A stretch of DNA of 64,000 nucleotides from Baekduia soli (GTDB lineage: Bacteria; Actinomycetota; Thermoleophilia; Solirubrobacterales; Solirubrobacteraceae): contig NZ_CP042430.1 in the NCBI RefSeq assembly GCF_007970665.1, positions 4,154,001 through 4,218,000 on the forward strand, read 5' to 3'. A program made the position numbers and the translations under genes. This document shows, in pieces, positions 45,105 to 51,957 of the stretch. The notes below the pieces were generated by a model that worked only from the letters and a program-made list of their open reading frames with translations, made no database searches and was not told the origin of the DNA. Every line of letters begins with the position of its first letter. Position 1 is the first letter of the stretch.

Positions 45105-45872
45105 ATGGACGACGACAGCGCCCGGCCCCGCGAGTGGGACGCGGGCACCTACCACCAGGTCGCCGTACCCCATCAGGGGTGGAGCGACGAGATCCTCGAA
45201 CGGCTGACCCTGCGCGGTGACGAGACCGTGCTCGACCTCGGCTGCGGCACCGGCAACGTCGCCGAGCGGCTCCTGGAGCGTCTGCCCAACGGCCACGTCA
45301 TCGGCGTCGATGGCTCCGCCGCGATGGTGCAGCAGGCCCGCGAGCGCCTGCCGGAGCGCACGACGTTCGTGCACGCCGACCTGCTCGACCTCGAGGTCGA
45401 GCCGCCCGCCGACGCCGCGGTGTCCTCGGCGACGTTCCACTGGATCGCCGACCACGACCGGCTGTTCGCGCGGGTCCGCGCGGCGCTCGTGCCCGGCGCG
45501 CCGCTCGTGGCGCAGTGCGGCGGGCGCGGCAACATCGCGGGGATCGTCGCGGGGGCCGAGGCCGTCGCAGCGCACGAGCCGTTCGCGCCGTACCTGGCCG
45601 GCTGGCCTGGCCCGTGGAACTTCGCGGGGCCCGAGGAGACGACGGAGCGCCTGCAGCGCGCGGGCTTCGCGGTGCAGAACTGCTGGCTGGCCGACTCGCC
45701 GCAGCGGCCCGAGCGCATCCGCGACTTCCTGGGCTCGGTGACGCTCGGCTCGCACCTGCTGCGGCTGCCCGAGAAGCTGCGCGACCCGTTCCTGGACGCC
45801 GTCGTGGAGCAGCTGGGCCCGGACCCCGTGCAGGACTACGTGCGCCTCAACATCGTGGCGAGCGCGGTGTAG
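45105..45872 (+). CDS. SAM-dependent methyltransferase (Tam-like)
   Basis: 255 residues from MDDDSARPREWDAGTYHQVA. SAM motifs: ETVLDLGCGTGNVAERLLE (motif I), GVDGSAAMVQQARERLP, FVHADLLDLEVEPPADAAVS and FHWIADHDRLFARVRAALVP, the last resembling trans-aconitate and related small-molecule methyltransferases. Divergent from valS. Its last 28 codons are repeated immediately downstream by a perfect 92-bp tandem duplication. Confidence 0.88.
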   Translation: MDDDSARPREWDAGTYHQVAVPHQGWSDEILERLTLRGDETVLDLGCGTGNVAERLLERLPNGHVIGVDGSAAMVQQARERLPERTTFVHADLLDLEVEPPADAAVSSATFHWIADHDRLFARVRAALVPGAPLVAQCGGRGNIAGIVAGAEAVAAHEPFAPYLAGWPGPWNFAGPEETTERLQRAGFAVQNCWLADSPQRPERIRDFLGSVTLGSHLLRLPEKLRDPFLDAVVEQLGPDPVQDYVRLNIVASAV

Positions 45873-45970
45873 GGCGCGCGTTCCTGGACGCCGTCGTGGA
45901 GCAGCTGGGCCCGGACCCCGTGCAGGACTACGTGCGCCTCAACATCGTGGCGAGCGCGGTGTAGGGCGCG
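45787..45970. repeat. perfect 92-bp tandem duplication of the methyltransferase 3' end
   Basis: Bases 45787-45878 and 45879-45970 are identical over the full 92 bp. The first copy ends the methyltransferase gene including its TAG; the second is an orphan copy of the same codons and stop. Absence of any mismatch suggests a recent event or an assembly artefact. Confidence 0.9.
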
Positions 45971-45976
45971 CCGCGC

Positions 45977-49275: not shown

Positions 49276-50649
49276 CTACTGGCCCGGGAGGATGATCTTC
49301 TCGCGCGCCGCGGCCCGCTCGGGGTCGATCGCCGTGGCCCGCTCGACGAGCAGCTCGATGGCCCGGTGCTGGGCCAGGTCCTCGCGCAGCTCGTCCAGGC
49401 GCCCGGAGCGCTCGAGCTGCTTGCGCAGCTTCTCGGGCTTGACGCCCTGCTGGGCCGCGGGCTCCTGGAGCGCGTCGAGGATGTCGCCGTCGGAGAGCTC
49501 GATGGACTCGGCCTCGATGACCGCGGCCAGGACGGCCTCGCGCCGCAGCGCCTTCTCGGCGTCGGGGCGGGCCTCCTCGAGCAGCTCCTCCTCGGACTTC
49601 TGCGCGATGCGCAGGTAGGCGTCCTTGTTGATGCCGCGGTGCGAGAGCGAGTGCAGCATCTGGTCGAAGAGCTCGCGGGAGCGGGCGTCGACGAGCGAGG
49701 TGGGCACCTCGACCTGGGCCTTGTCGACCACGGCGTCCAGCGCGGCCTCGTTGAACTCGGCCTGGATCTGGCGCTCCTCGGTCTCGCGCAGGCGCTTGGC
49801 GATGTCCTCGCGCAGCTCGGCGACGGAGTCGAAGCCGCCGGCCTCCGTGGCGAAGTCGTCGTCGAGCTCGGGCAGCTGCTTGGCCTTGACCTCGTTGACG
49901 GTCACCTCGAACCGGGCCGGCTTGCCGGCCAGGTGCGGCGCGGAGCCGTAGTCCTCGGGGAACGTGATCTCCACGACGCGCTCCTCGCCCGCGGACGCGC
50001 CGACGAGCTGCTCCTCGAAGCCGGGGATGAACTGCCCGCTGCCCAGCTCGAGCAGGTGGTCGCGGCCCTCGCCGCCGTCGAAGTAGTCGCGCTCGCCGTC
50101 CTCGCCCTCGATCGACCCCTTGAAGTCGATGACCGCGTAGTCGCCCTCGGCGGCGGCGCGCTCGACGGTCTCCAGGCGGCCGAGCTGCTCGCGCAGGCGG
50201 GCGACCTGCTCGTCGATCTTCGCGTCGTCGACCTCGGGCTCGCGCCGCGGGACCTCGATCGTGGAGATGTCGCCGAGGGTGGCGGTCGGGCGCACGCCGA
50301 TCTCGATCGTGAAGGTCAGGGGCTGGCCCTCGGCCGGCAGGTCGCCGAGGTCGACATCGGGCTCGCCGACCGGGTGGATGCCGGCGGCGTCGATCGCGTC
50401 GACGTACCAGCGGCCCAGCGAGCCGCGGACGGCCTCGTCGAGCACGGCGTCGCGCCCGATGCGCTGGATGACCACGGGGGCGGGGACCTTGCCCTGGCGG
50501 AAGCCGGGCATCCGCAGGTCGCGGCCCATGCGCCCGGCGGCCTCGTTGAGACGCCGGGCCACCTCGGCGGCGGGCACCTCCGCCTCCACGCGCACCCGCG
50601 ACTCGGGGAGCTCCTCGACGGTGGTCTTCAGCTTCTCGGCAGCGGCCAT
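49276..50649 (-). CDS. tig: trigger factor
   Basis: 457 residues from MAAAEKLKTTVEELPESRVR. An N-terminal ribosome-binding domain with MPGFRQGKVPAPVVIQRIG (the GFRxGKxP signature), a PPIase domain (YAVIDFKGSIEGEDGERDYF...FPEDYG) and a helical C-terminal chaperone cradle follow. A co-translational chaperone upstream of clpP-clpX, a classic order. A 92-bp-period repeat array lies immediately upstream. Confidence 0.96.
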   Translation of the reverse strand: MAAAEKLKTTVEELPESRVRVEAEVPAAEVARRLNEAAGRMGRDLRMPGFRQGKVPAPVVIQRIGRDAVLDEAVRGSLGRWYVDAIDAAGIHPVGEPDVDLGDLPAEGQPLTFTIEIGVRPTATLGDISTIEVPRREPEVDDAKIDEQVARLREQLGRLETVERAAAEGDYAVIDFKGSIEGEDGERDYFDGGEGRDHLLELGSGQFIPGFEEQLVGASAGEERVVEITFPEDYGSAPHLAGKPARFEVTVNEVKAKQLPELDDDFATEAGGFDSVAELREDIAKRLRETEERQIQAEFNEAALDAVVDKAQVEVPTSLVDARSRELFDQMLHSLSHRGINKDAYLRIAQKSEEELLEEARPDAEKALRREAVLAAVIEAESIELSDGDILDALQEPAAQQGVKPEKLRKQLERSGRLDELREDLAQHRAIELLVERATAIDPERAAAREKIILPGQ

Positions 50650-50665
50650 ATCGGTGGTGACGATA

Positions 50666-50912
50666 GCGGGGAAGGGCTCGCTCAGGGGGCTCGCCTTCCC
50701 TTGCGCGAGCTCGCCCAGGGGGCTCGCTCGCACCGCCCGGCCAGATCGAGCCGACCAGCGGGGAAGGGCTCGCCCAGGGGGCTCGCCTTCCCTTGCGCGA
50801 GCTCGCCCAGGGGGCTCGCTCGCACCGCCCGGCCAGATCGAGCCGACCAGCGGGGAACGGCTCGCCCAGGGGGCTCGCCTTCCCTTGCGCGAGCTCGCCC
50901 AGGGGGCTCGCC
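50666..50912. repeat. 92-bp-period tandem repeat array upstream of tig
   Basis: GCGGGGAA begins at 50666, 50758 and 50850, giving two full units and a partial third, with only a few mismatches. Within each unit, CAGGGGGCTCGC occurs twice, and the pieces CGCCTTCCCTTGCGCGAGC and CACCGCCCGGCCAGATCGAG recur. It occupies the tig 5' region and ends about 20 bp before the small rightward gene at 50933. No spacers between units, so it is not a CRISPR. Confidence 0.85.
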
Positions 50913-50932
50913 CACGCACCGTCACGGGTACG

Positions 50933-51091
50933 GTGAAGGCCGTGGCCGCCCGCCCGCTCCCGCTCCCGACCCGCCTCGCGGCCTGGCTGTACACCGGGCC
51001 GCTCGGGCACCTCTACGGGGGGCTGCTCGACTGGGCGTCGCTGCTCGGGCGCCTGCTGTGGATGCGCGTGCGCGCCCGCACCGGTCGCTGA
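50933..51091 (+). CDS. small hydrophobic/basic protein
   Basis: 52 residues from a GTG (a second GTG lies at 50942): RLAAWLYTGPLGHLYGGLLD then WASLLGRLLWMRVRARTGR. The WLxTGPLGHLxxGxxDW core looks like a conserved small actinobacterial protein I have seen without function. Amphipathic, perhaps membrane-associated. Divergent from tig. Confidence 0.6.
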   Translation: MKAVAARPLPLPTRLAAWLYTGPLGHLYGGLLDWASLLGRLLWMRVRARTGR

Positions 51092-51147
51092 CCGGCGGCG
51101 ACCACCCCGCAGGGCGGTCGCCGCGGCCCGCGTGGCTCCCGTGCGCC

Positions 51148-51957
51148 TCAGCAGGTGGCGACGAGGTGGAACGGCCGGTCGGTGGGCGCGGTCGCGCCGG
51201 TCCCGTCGGCCCCGCCGCCGGCGCGCGTGCGCACCGTGACGGTCTTGTGGTCGCCGCCGAGCTGCACGCCGACGGCGCCGGCATCCTCGAACTGCGTCTC
51301 GGTGGCGCTGAGGGCGCAGCCCGAGACGTCGTTGGCGAACACGACCGTGTAGGTGCCCGCGCCGGTGCGGGACGCCGAGGTGGCTCCGCGGTTGCCGCCG
51401 AGCGTGCCGTCGGCGTCGACGGCCGCGAACGGGCTCAGGCCCTGGGCCGTGGCCACGGCGTCGGTGTGGGCGGCCTTGAGCGTGTCGTTCTGGATGTCGT
51501 CGGCGCTCTTGCCGTCGACCTGGTCGGCGTTGAGGCCGGTCGCCACGCCGTGGGCGTTGGTCGTGAACGGCGCGGCGGCCGCGTTGGACGAGGTGATCGC
51601 CCCGACCTCGGTGCCGCCCTTGGACTCGAACTCGAACGCCCGGCCGTCGGCCAGGTTGCTGGCCCGCACGCAGGGCTCGTTGCCCTTGGGGGAGCCGCCC
51701 GCCTTGGAGCGGCAGCCGTAGATCGCGCCGCCGCCGTTGTCGGACTTGTTGGACTGGCGTGTGCCGTAGGTGCCGGTGTTGGCGATGATCTGGGTCTCGC
51801 GACTCAGCGCCGCGCTCTCGTTGGAGCCGGGGTTGCGCTTGCCGCCGAGGATCGCACCACCCTCGCCGGACGCGACGGCGAAGCTCGAGATGAGCAGACC
51901 CAGGACCACGGCGCTGGCGAGCACCAGGGTCCCCTTCGAGCGAAACCTGCGGAACAT
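51148..51957 (-). CDS. secreted protein with NADQVDG-type motif
   Basis: 269 residues with a clear signal peptide (KGTLVLASAVVLGLLISSFA). The mature protein is Gly/Ala/Asn/Thr-rich and beta-prone. It contains GLNADQVDGKSADDIQ, a motif recurring in secreted actinobacterial proteins, and a C-terminal domain with YTVVFANDVSGCALSATETQ and HKTVTVRTRAGGGADGTGAT. Paired cysteines may form disulfides. Probably a surface or extracellular structural protein; function unknown. Confidence 0.75.
   Translation of the reverse strand: MFRRFRSKGTLVLASAVVLGLLISSFAVASGEGGAILGGKRNPGSNESAALSRETQIIANTGTYGTRQSNKSDNGGGAIYGCRSKAGGSPKGNEPCVRASNLADGRAFEFESKGGTEVGAITSSNAAAAPFTTNAHGVATGLNADQVDGKSADDIQNDTLKAAHTDAVATAQGLSPFAAVDADGTLGGNRGATSASRTGAGTYTVVFANDVSGCALSATETQFEDAGAVGVQLGGDHKTVTVRTRAGGGADGTGATAPTDRPFHLVATC

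Follow-up and report, generated by a model that had tools for sequence, protein, structure and literature searches.

Repetitive extragenic palindromes (REP) and bacterial interspersed mosaic elements (BIME) are dispersed extragenic palindromes at the 3′ ends of genes, where several often occur together, and bacterial tandem-hairpin terminators are pairs of GC-rich hairpins that directly follow stop codons, in many cases where two genes converge. Mycobacterial interspersed repetitive units (MIRUs) form tandem arrays and occupy intercistronic DTGA sites. A review describes MIRUs as apparently mobile, inserting at start codons with an open reading frame (ORF) coupled at -4 nt (PMC12548453), and Rickettsia palindromic elements are palindromic repeats whose ORF is in frame with genes of the host (PMC10969869). 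Here, these systems are compared with a repeat of Baekduia soli (RefSeq assembly GCF_007970665.1, contig NZ_CP042430.1, positions 4,154,001 to 4,218,000; this whole stretch of 64,000 nucleotides is called the window, and plain coordinates refer to it). Adjoining the 5′ side of tig, the trigger factor gene, the window contains a tandem array with a 92-bp period, as an earlier note on this DNA had claimed; what that note missed is that the array unit is part of a dispersed, structured repeat family. Specifically, a dispersed intergenic element with two hairpins is present three times in tandem in the array. It occurs in two forms: U, whose second hairpin has a UC/UC loop, and P, whose second hairpin is fully paired. 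The reading that we favour, and consider probable though far from certain, is that the U form of this element keeps the junctions it occupies working and that a copy at tig was amplified.

Each array unit is composed of a double hairpin of about 65 nt and a spacer of about 27 bp:

50665..50911, + strand: tandem array, 92-bp period, 2.7 copies, 98% matches, score 480 (Tandem Repeats Finder; repeat search)
50669..50733, + strand: unit 1, double-hairpin element, U form (covariance model, 75.3 bits; fold), with hairpin 1 at about 50669-50700, a TT linker and hairpin 2 at about 50703-50733 (borders read from the sequence)
50761..50825, + strand: unit 2, double-hairpin element, U form (77.8 bits, the top match in the genome)
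50853..50917, + strand: unit 3, double-hairpin element, slightly decayed, both outer stems changed (63.6 bits; sequence)
50734..50760 and again 50826-50852, no strand: 27-bp spacer completing the 92-bp unit (sequence; repeat search)

The copies are in register at 50665, 50757 and 50849, one base to the left of the unit starts given earlier (50666, 50758 and 50850). Over the full 92 bases, unit 2 is 99% identical to unit 1, from which it differs at a single base, and unit 3, which has substitutions of its own, is 76% identical to unit 1, a low value because unit 3 is incomplete. The two internal motif copies per unit that had been noticed are also present: CAGGGGGCTCGC occurs exactly six times in the window, twice in each of the three units and never outside the array, and with two mismatches it is found elsewhere in the window at or below the level expected by chance.

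Searching the genome for the unit, a check that had been proposed, recovered diverged copies at distant positions. These share one plan: in each of two hairpins joined by a short linker, a variable outer stem encloses CTCGCCCAGGGGGCTCG or its paired counterpart. With a covariance model made from 15 copies, 62 matches are obtained in this genome (G000) at E<=10. At E<=0.1 there are 51 in G000, 73 in G001, 54 in G003, 13 in G004, 16 in G006, 24 in G016 and 16 in G017; the congeners G002 and G005 have no match, and each of the remaining 32 of the 41 genomes has at most one. At E<=1e-4, 25 of 146 genomes of the family are positive, in 6 of 25 genera, with about 200 such strong matches in those 25 genomes, and a class-wide draw has 16 positives among 399 genomes, all of them in the same family; these larger searches used stricter filters and their counts are lower bounds. 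The stems of the element covary. Specifically, the covariation score is 0.357 versus 0.125 when shuffled in one alignment (A2) and 0.398 versus 0.112 in another (A3), and two-sided changes occur in 22 of 28 pairs (16.0 when shuffled) and in 21 pairs (17.7), respectively; pair counts were tested against shuffles and slides, and both alignments were fitted to the covariance model. No Rfam family matches over the element at its gathering score in the window or in 10 element loci (two overlapping matches, with E of 1.7 and 6.8, are far below it), and in the open-licence literature searched on MIRU, REP in Actinobacteria, Rickettsia palindromes, Solirubrobacter repeats, bidirectional promoters and intercistronic repeats, no title or opening of an abstract named it. 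Unlike in REP/BIME, both hairpins have the same direction, and the outer stems covary freely with the apical part kept; unlike tandem-hairpin terminators, the element has an apical motif common across the genome and no U-tract.

The two forms differ in their gene context. The best-scoring fetched matches from 21 genomes gave 177 distinct elements, or 153 after collapsing arrays (75 U, 48 P and 30 unclassified); the pooled elements are partly orthologous and so not independent, and genes were called by a codon-usage script trained on G000 and applied to the other genomes too. Among the 51 best matches in G000, with each array copy counted on its own, 45 follow a gene of the same strand (29 in convergent and 16 in co-directional gaps), and four lie in divergent gaps, three of these four being the tig units. 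In the pooled set, 126 of 153 have a same-strand upstream gene, and 99 of these 126 start between -20 and +15 nt from its stop. U copies number 51 in co-directional and 7 in convergent gaps, compared with 9 and 33 for P (Fisher p=1.3e-11), and the contrast is found within G000 (p=3e-4), G001 (0.01) and G056 (0.014). The stop codon nearby differs as well: TGA at 41 of 45 U copies near an upstream stop and TAG at 23 of 32 P copies, the background in a G000 sample of 777 called genes being 574 TGA and 195 TAG. In 51 of the 55 elements with two U hairpins, the antisense strand has the stabler fold (mean of -31.7 kcal/mol for sense versus -37.0 for antisense), and those with two P hairpins fold almost equally on the two strands (-47.5 and -47.2 kcal/mol, n=37). 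In terms of modelled stability, this pattern fits a sense RNA passable for ribosomes in the U form and a symmetric 3′-end hairpin in the P form, and P copies between convergent genes would probably serve as two-way 3′-end hairpins. The form can also differ at orthologous sites, since in the pair L184 (G003) and L224 (G001) the second hairpin is U in one species and P in the other.

At co-directional junctions, the spacing of the neighbouring genes follows a rule. The set of elements that fill such gaps (n=44, i.e. 36 U and 8 with an unclassified second hairpin; nine are from G000) has an upstream stop in D-TGA context in 35 cases (ATGA 22, GTGA 11, TTGA 2), and the next gene starts with NTGA in 25, compared with 259 of the 777 background genes (p=0.003). 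The gap from stop to start is 1 modulo 3, the value required for an ORF overlapping both neighbours by 4 nt, in 32 of the 44 (p=1e-7) and in 25 of the 37 without the modal length; ordinary G000 gaps of 55-125 bp have this value in 34 of 86 cases. In other genera, the rule holds at 18 of 20 sites. An in-frame mini-ORF overlaps the next start by 4 nt (27 sites) or 1 nt (one site) in 28 of the 44, versus 8 of the 86 ordinary gaps, nearby in-frame alternative starts having been allowed in both sets. The openness of the mini-ORF was dropped as evidence, because both forms are stop-free in most frames.

Many U-form copies seem, on the favoured reading, to have entered a 4-nt ATGA or GTGA stop-start overlap in such a way that the junction kept working. 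The upstream gene would still stop at the left edge of the element, the in-frame mini-ORF would cross it, with a stop overlapping the start of the next gene, and ribosomes could be relayed across the element to that gene. The likeness to MIRUs lies in this class, which occupies co-directional stop-start overlaps (51 of 58 U copies, counting co-directional and convergent gaps) and has its mini-ORF coupled at -4 nt. Unlike MIRUs, with which it is compared by description only, the element is a covarying double hairpin with UC/UC loops, has a sister form between convergent genes and gives matches, among the genomes searched, only in one family of another lineage. Rickettsia palindromic elements enter genes and give fusions, whereas the double hairpins lie between genes as separate mini-ORFs. 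If the favoured reading is true, the element would join the mycobacterial MIRUs, for which such behaviour has been described, as a second and apparently independent case of an intergenic repeat that keeps translational coupling intact as it spreads through operons. With about 200 strong matches, stems that covary and sites filled in some species and empty in others, both the mechanism of spread and the cost of operon insertion become testable.

Filled and empty sites are present at three junctions, whose gene names come from reading the proteins and whose alleles come from the junction sequences. At cdd-pnp, the element is present in G001 and the other six genomes with a match have an ATGA or GTGA junction (7 of 14 searched matched). 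At scpA-scpB (13 loci fetched, 12 processed by script, 9 inspected), it is present in G003, and a D-TGA overlap is found in G000, G001, G005, G008 and G009. At ybeY-era (16 loci fetched, 13 inspected), G000 and G001 have the element, and G005, G006, G008, G009, G017 and G059 have the overlap. Because filled and empty sites occur, we infer that the element has been mobile. A narrower test for target duplication gave a modest signal, 15.83 versus 14.47 (p ~0.003; 3 of 42 sites above the 99th percentile), and flank duplication at cdd-pnp and ybeY-era is suggestive. A positive result at convergent sites in an ungapped version came largely from the tandem array at 2799524 of the genome and was discarded, and rnr-smpB, with an element in G000 and none in G002, was left unused as the other junctions had different upstream genes. 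In a separate observation, the stop-start overlap of ybeY-era, filled by the double hairpin in G000 and G001, is occupied in G003 (L259) by another kind of insert, which is about 32 bp long and has an imperfect direct repeat of 21 bp on its flanks.

A bolder proposal, which we hold only tentatively and would sooner doubt than accept, is that the element is a self-spreading, portable mini-cistron. It would enter ATGA overlaps, duplicate the Shine-Dalgarno-ATGA segment, so that both neighbouring genes could keep their signals, and relay ribosomes; the inner stem would act as a switch, UC/UC giving a translated relay inside operons and the paired state a two-way terminator between convergent genes.

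A number of results weigh against the favoured reading. With regard to context and coupling, (i) the contrast between U and P is not significant in G003 (p=0.12), (ii) a coupled mini-ORF is found in only 2 of the 9 co-directional U elements of this genome, (iii) within the genus the frame rule holds at 14 of 24 sites (p=0.01), its strength coming from the other genera, and (iv) 63 of 75 U and 43 of 48 P elements are open in all three frames. A U-tract (five T in the eight bases after hairpin 2) follows none of the 153 elements, so that simple intrinsic termination is not supported. With regard to mobility, four of the 13 ybeY-era junctions inspected (G015, G016, G053 and G136) are free of the element and lack the 4-nt overlap, the ungapped target-duplication test at co-directional sites gave 12.4 versus 12.2, with 114 of 300 shuffles as high, and at L336, one of the three top flank-repeat sites, the flank includes part of a second element copy. 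The analysis found no mobiliser: among genomes with the element, the transposase domain Y1_Tnp (PF01797) is missing from G000, G003 and G016 (a weak negative for G003, which is 68% complete) and present in G001, G004, G006 and G017, and G002 and G005, which lack the element, have the domain too. Mobilisation of the IS200 type or by a REP-associated tyrosine transposase (RAYT) was rejected since Y1_Tnp does not track the element, unlike in RAYT-mobilised palindromes. Finally, nothing in the sequence analysis shows an effect of the array on tig.

The rival that survives best, although we regard it as rather unlikely, is that all copies are a lineage-specific transcription terminator, inherited vertically and immobile, with U and P differing as operon junctions tolerate only weak hairpins. 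This would account for copies directly after stop codons and for orthologous copies that persist with compensatory changes, and one copy (L137) is located at a natural terminator site, with the end of a gene on one side and the leader of a ZTP riboswitch on the other. It fits poorly, however, with the occurrence of filled as well as empty alleles where the 4-nt overlap is otherwise intact, with gap lengths biased modulo 3 at U sites, with U copies in divergent gaps (tig included) and with a presence so patchy that two genomes of the same genus have no match; the missing U-tract counts against it too.

Stop-start overlap and a coupled mini-ORF are features of the U class, and the tig copies, which are of the U form, sit instead in a divergent gap, a site unusual for that form. 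The features around them are:

49276..50649, - strand: tig, trigger factor, 457 aa (Pfam Trigger_N/C, PF05697/PF05698; NCBIfam TIGR00115)
50660..50665, - strand: -10-like box of tig, TATCGT on the minus strand, 16 nt before the ATG (TANNNT in 22/23 loci)
50929..50934, + strand: -10-like TACGGT, putatively of the divergent tiny ORF (sequence; role by analogy with tig)
50942..51091, + strand: conserved divergent tiny ORF, 49 aa, containing TGPLGHLYGGLLDW (motif upstream of tig)

The tig gene starts with the ATG at 50649 and reads leftwards. Of 30 tig loci fetched (own included), 25 matched the search motif, and the start could be placed in 23 of them; TANNNT is found 13-20 nt before the ATG in 22 of the 23, and the tiny-ORF motif (TGPxGHLYGGxxDW) upstream of tig in 18 of the 25, the own locus being included in both. 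The tiny ORF has no match in Pfam (E<=0.001) or NCBIfam (E<=0.01). The earlier note had placed the array where the tig leader should be. The conserved TANNNT box, however, lies between the array and the ATG, and therefore the array is probably upstream of the promoter box and not in the leader; the tig mRNA is probably leaderless, or nearly so, and starts outside the array. A scan for consensus promoters and terminators near tig returned none, including no intrinsic terminator in 50400-51400.

Copy-number variation, which the earlier note had suggested measuring among strains, is seen between species. At orthologous tig sites, there are three copies here, one in G003 and one in G001, and none was seen in the regions compared from G004, G006 and G002, giving 3, 1, 1, 0, 0 and 0 in six genomes of the genus; the seventh, G005, has no element match genome-wide, its tig upstream region being outside this comparison. 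One compensatory change separates the orthologous copies, which read GGGAAGG/CCTTCCC in this genome and G003 and GGCAAGG/CCTTGCC in G001. In G004 and G006, whose tig sites are free of the element, the divergent -10-like boxes overlap (ACGCTATC and ACGCTACC), and the pattern ANNNTANNNT occurs near the tig start in 15 of the 25 loci, as a raw count. In G000, G003 and G001, each gene has a separate box and the element lies between the two, which suggests that a promoter serving both directions was split by the insertion. Bidirectional promoters with a shared -10 element are known in bacteria (PMC12825309). On the favoured reading, a common ancestor of G000, G003 and G001 acquired one copy in the divergent promoter region between tig and the tiny ORF, or the copy was lost elsewhere. 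In G000, it would then have been amplified to three by tandem duplication of the element with about 27 bp of flank, and this growth was probably recent, because there are three units here versus one in G003 and G001, and units 1 and 2 differ at one base.

That the array tunes trigger-factor expression by copy number, either as leader or as a promoter-proximal variable number tandem repeat (VNTR), was the idea of the earlier note and appears quite improbable: the array does abut the tig promoter box and fill the -35 region, and copy number does vary across the six genomes, but it lies upstream of the conserved -10 box, beside which extra units would leave near-identical sequence. On the favoured reading, the array would be mainly a spacer between two promoters, and what resembles a promoter VNTR can arise as a side effect of an element of this kind.

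The window contains one further array of the same period, a perfect 92-bp duplication at 45787-45971 by which the 3′ end of a methyltransferase-like gene, with its stop codon, is present a second time in the convergent gap. The whole-genome search with the double-hairpin model has no match in 45787-45971, and because its only matches in the window are the three array units, this duplication is not a copy of the element; the two sequences are unrelated, as had been stated, and the equal period is not due to a shared element. The survey for other 92-bp arrays that had been recommended was carried out on a sample, and Tandem Repeats Finder detected no array with a period of at least 85 bp beyond these two in 864 kb (40 stretches of 20 kb plus the window, about 17% of the genome). 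An assembly artefact in the tandem copy number, the weakest rival and a most improbable one, could draw on the two arrays lying within 5 kb as the only ones in that sample, but they are unlike in sequence, units 1 and 2 differ by one base, unit 3 has its own substitutions, and adjacent element copies in other genomes have other spacings. Specifically, such spacings elsewhere are 63-107 bp, with 15 of the 26 listed at 84-92 (two larger ones, 154 and 182, result from the removal of identical copies), and therefore 92 bp corresponds to the element plus flank.

Two further loci may be mentioned. At L055 1489-1852 (about 2799519-2799882 of G000), a P-form element is present between convergent genes in four perfect 91-bp tandem copies. 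At L137, the ZTP riboswitch (Rfam RF01750) is at 1621-1703, just downstream of the element, and the neighbouring genes are ketol-acid reductoisomerase-like and phosphoserine aminotransferase-like, as named from reading the proteins.
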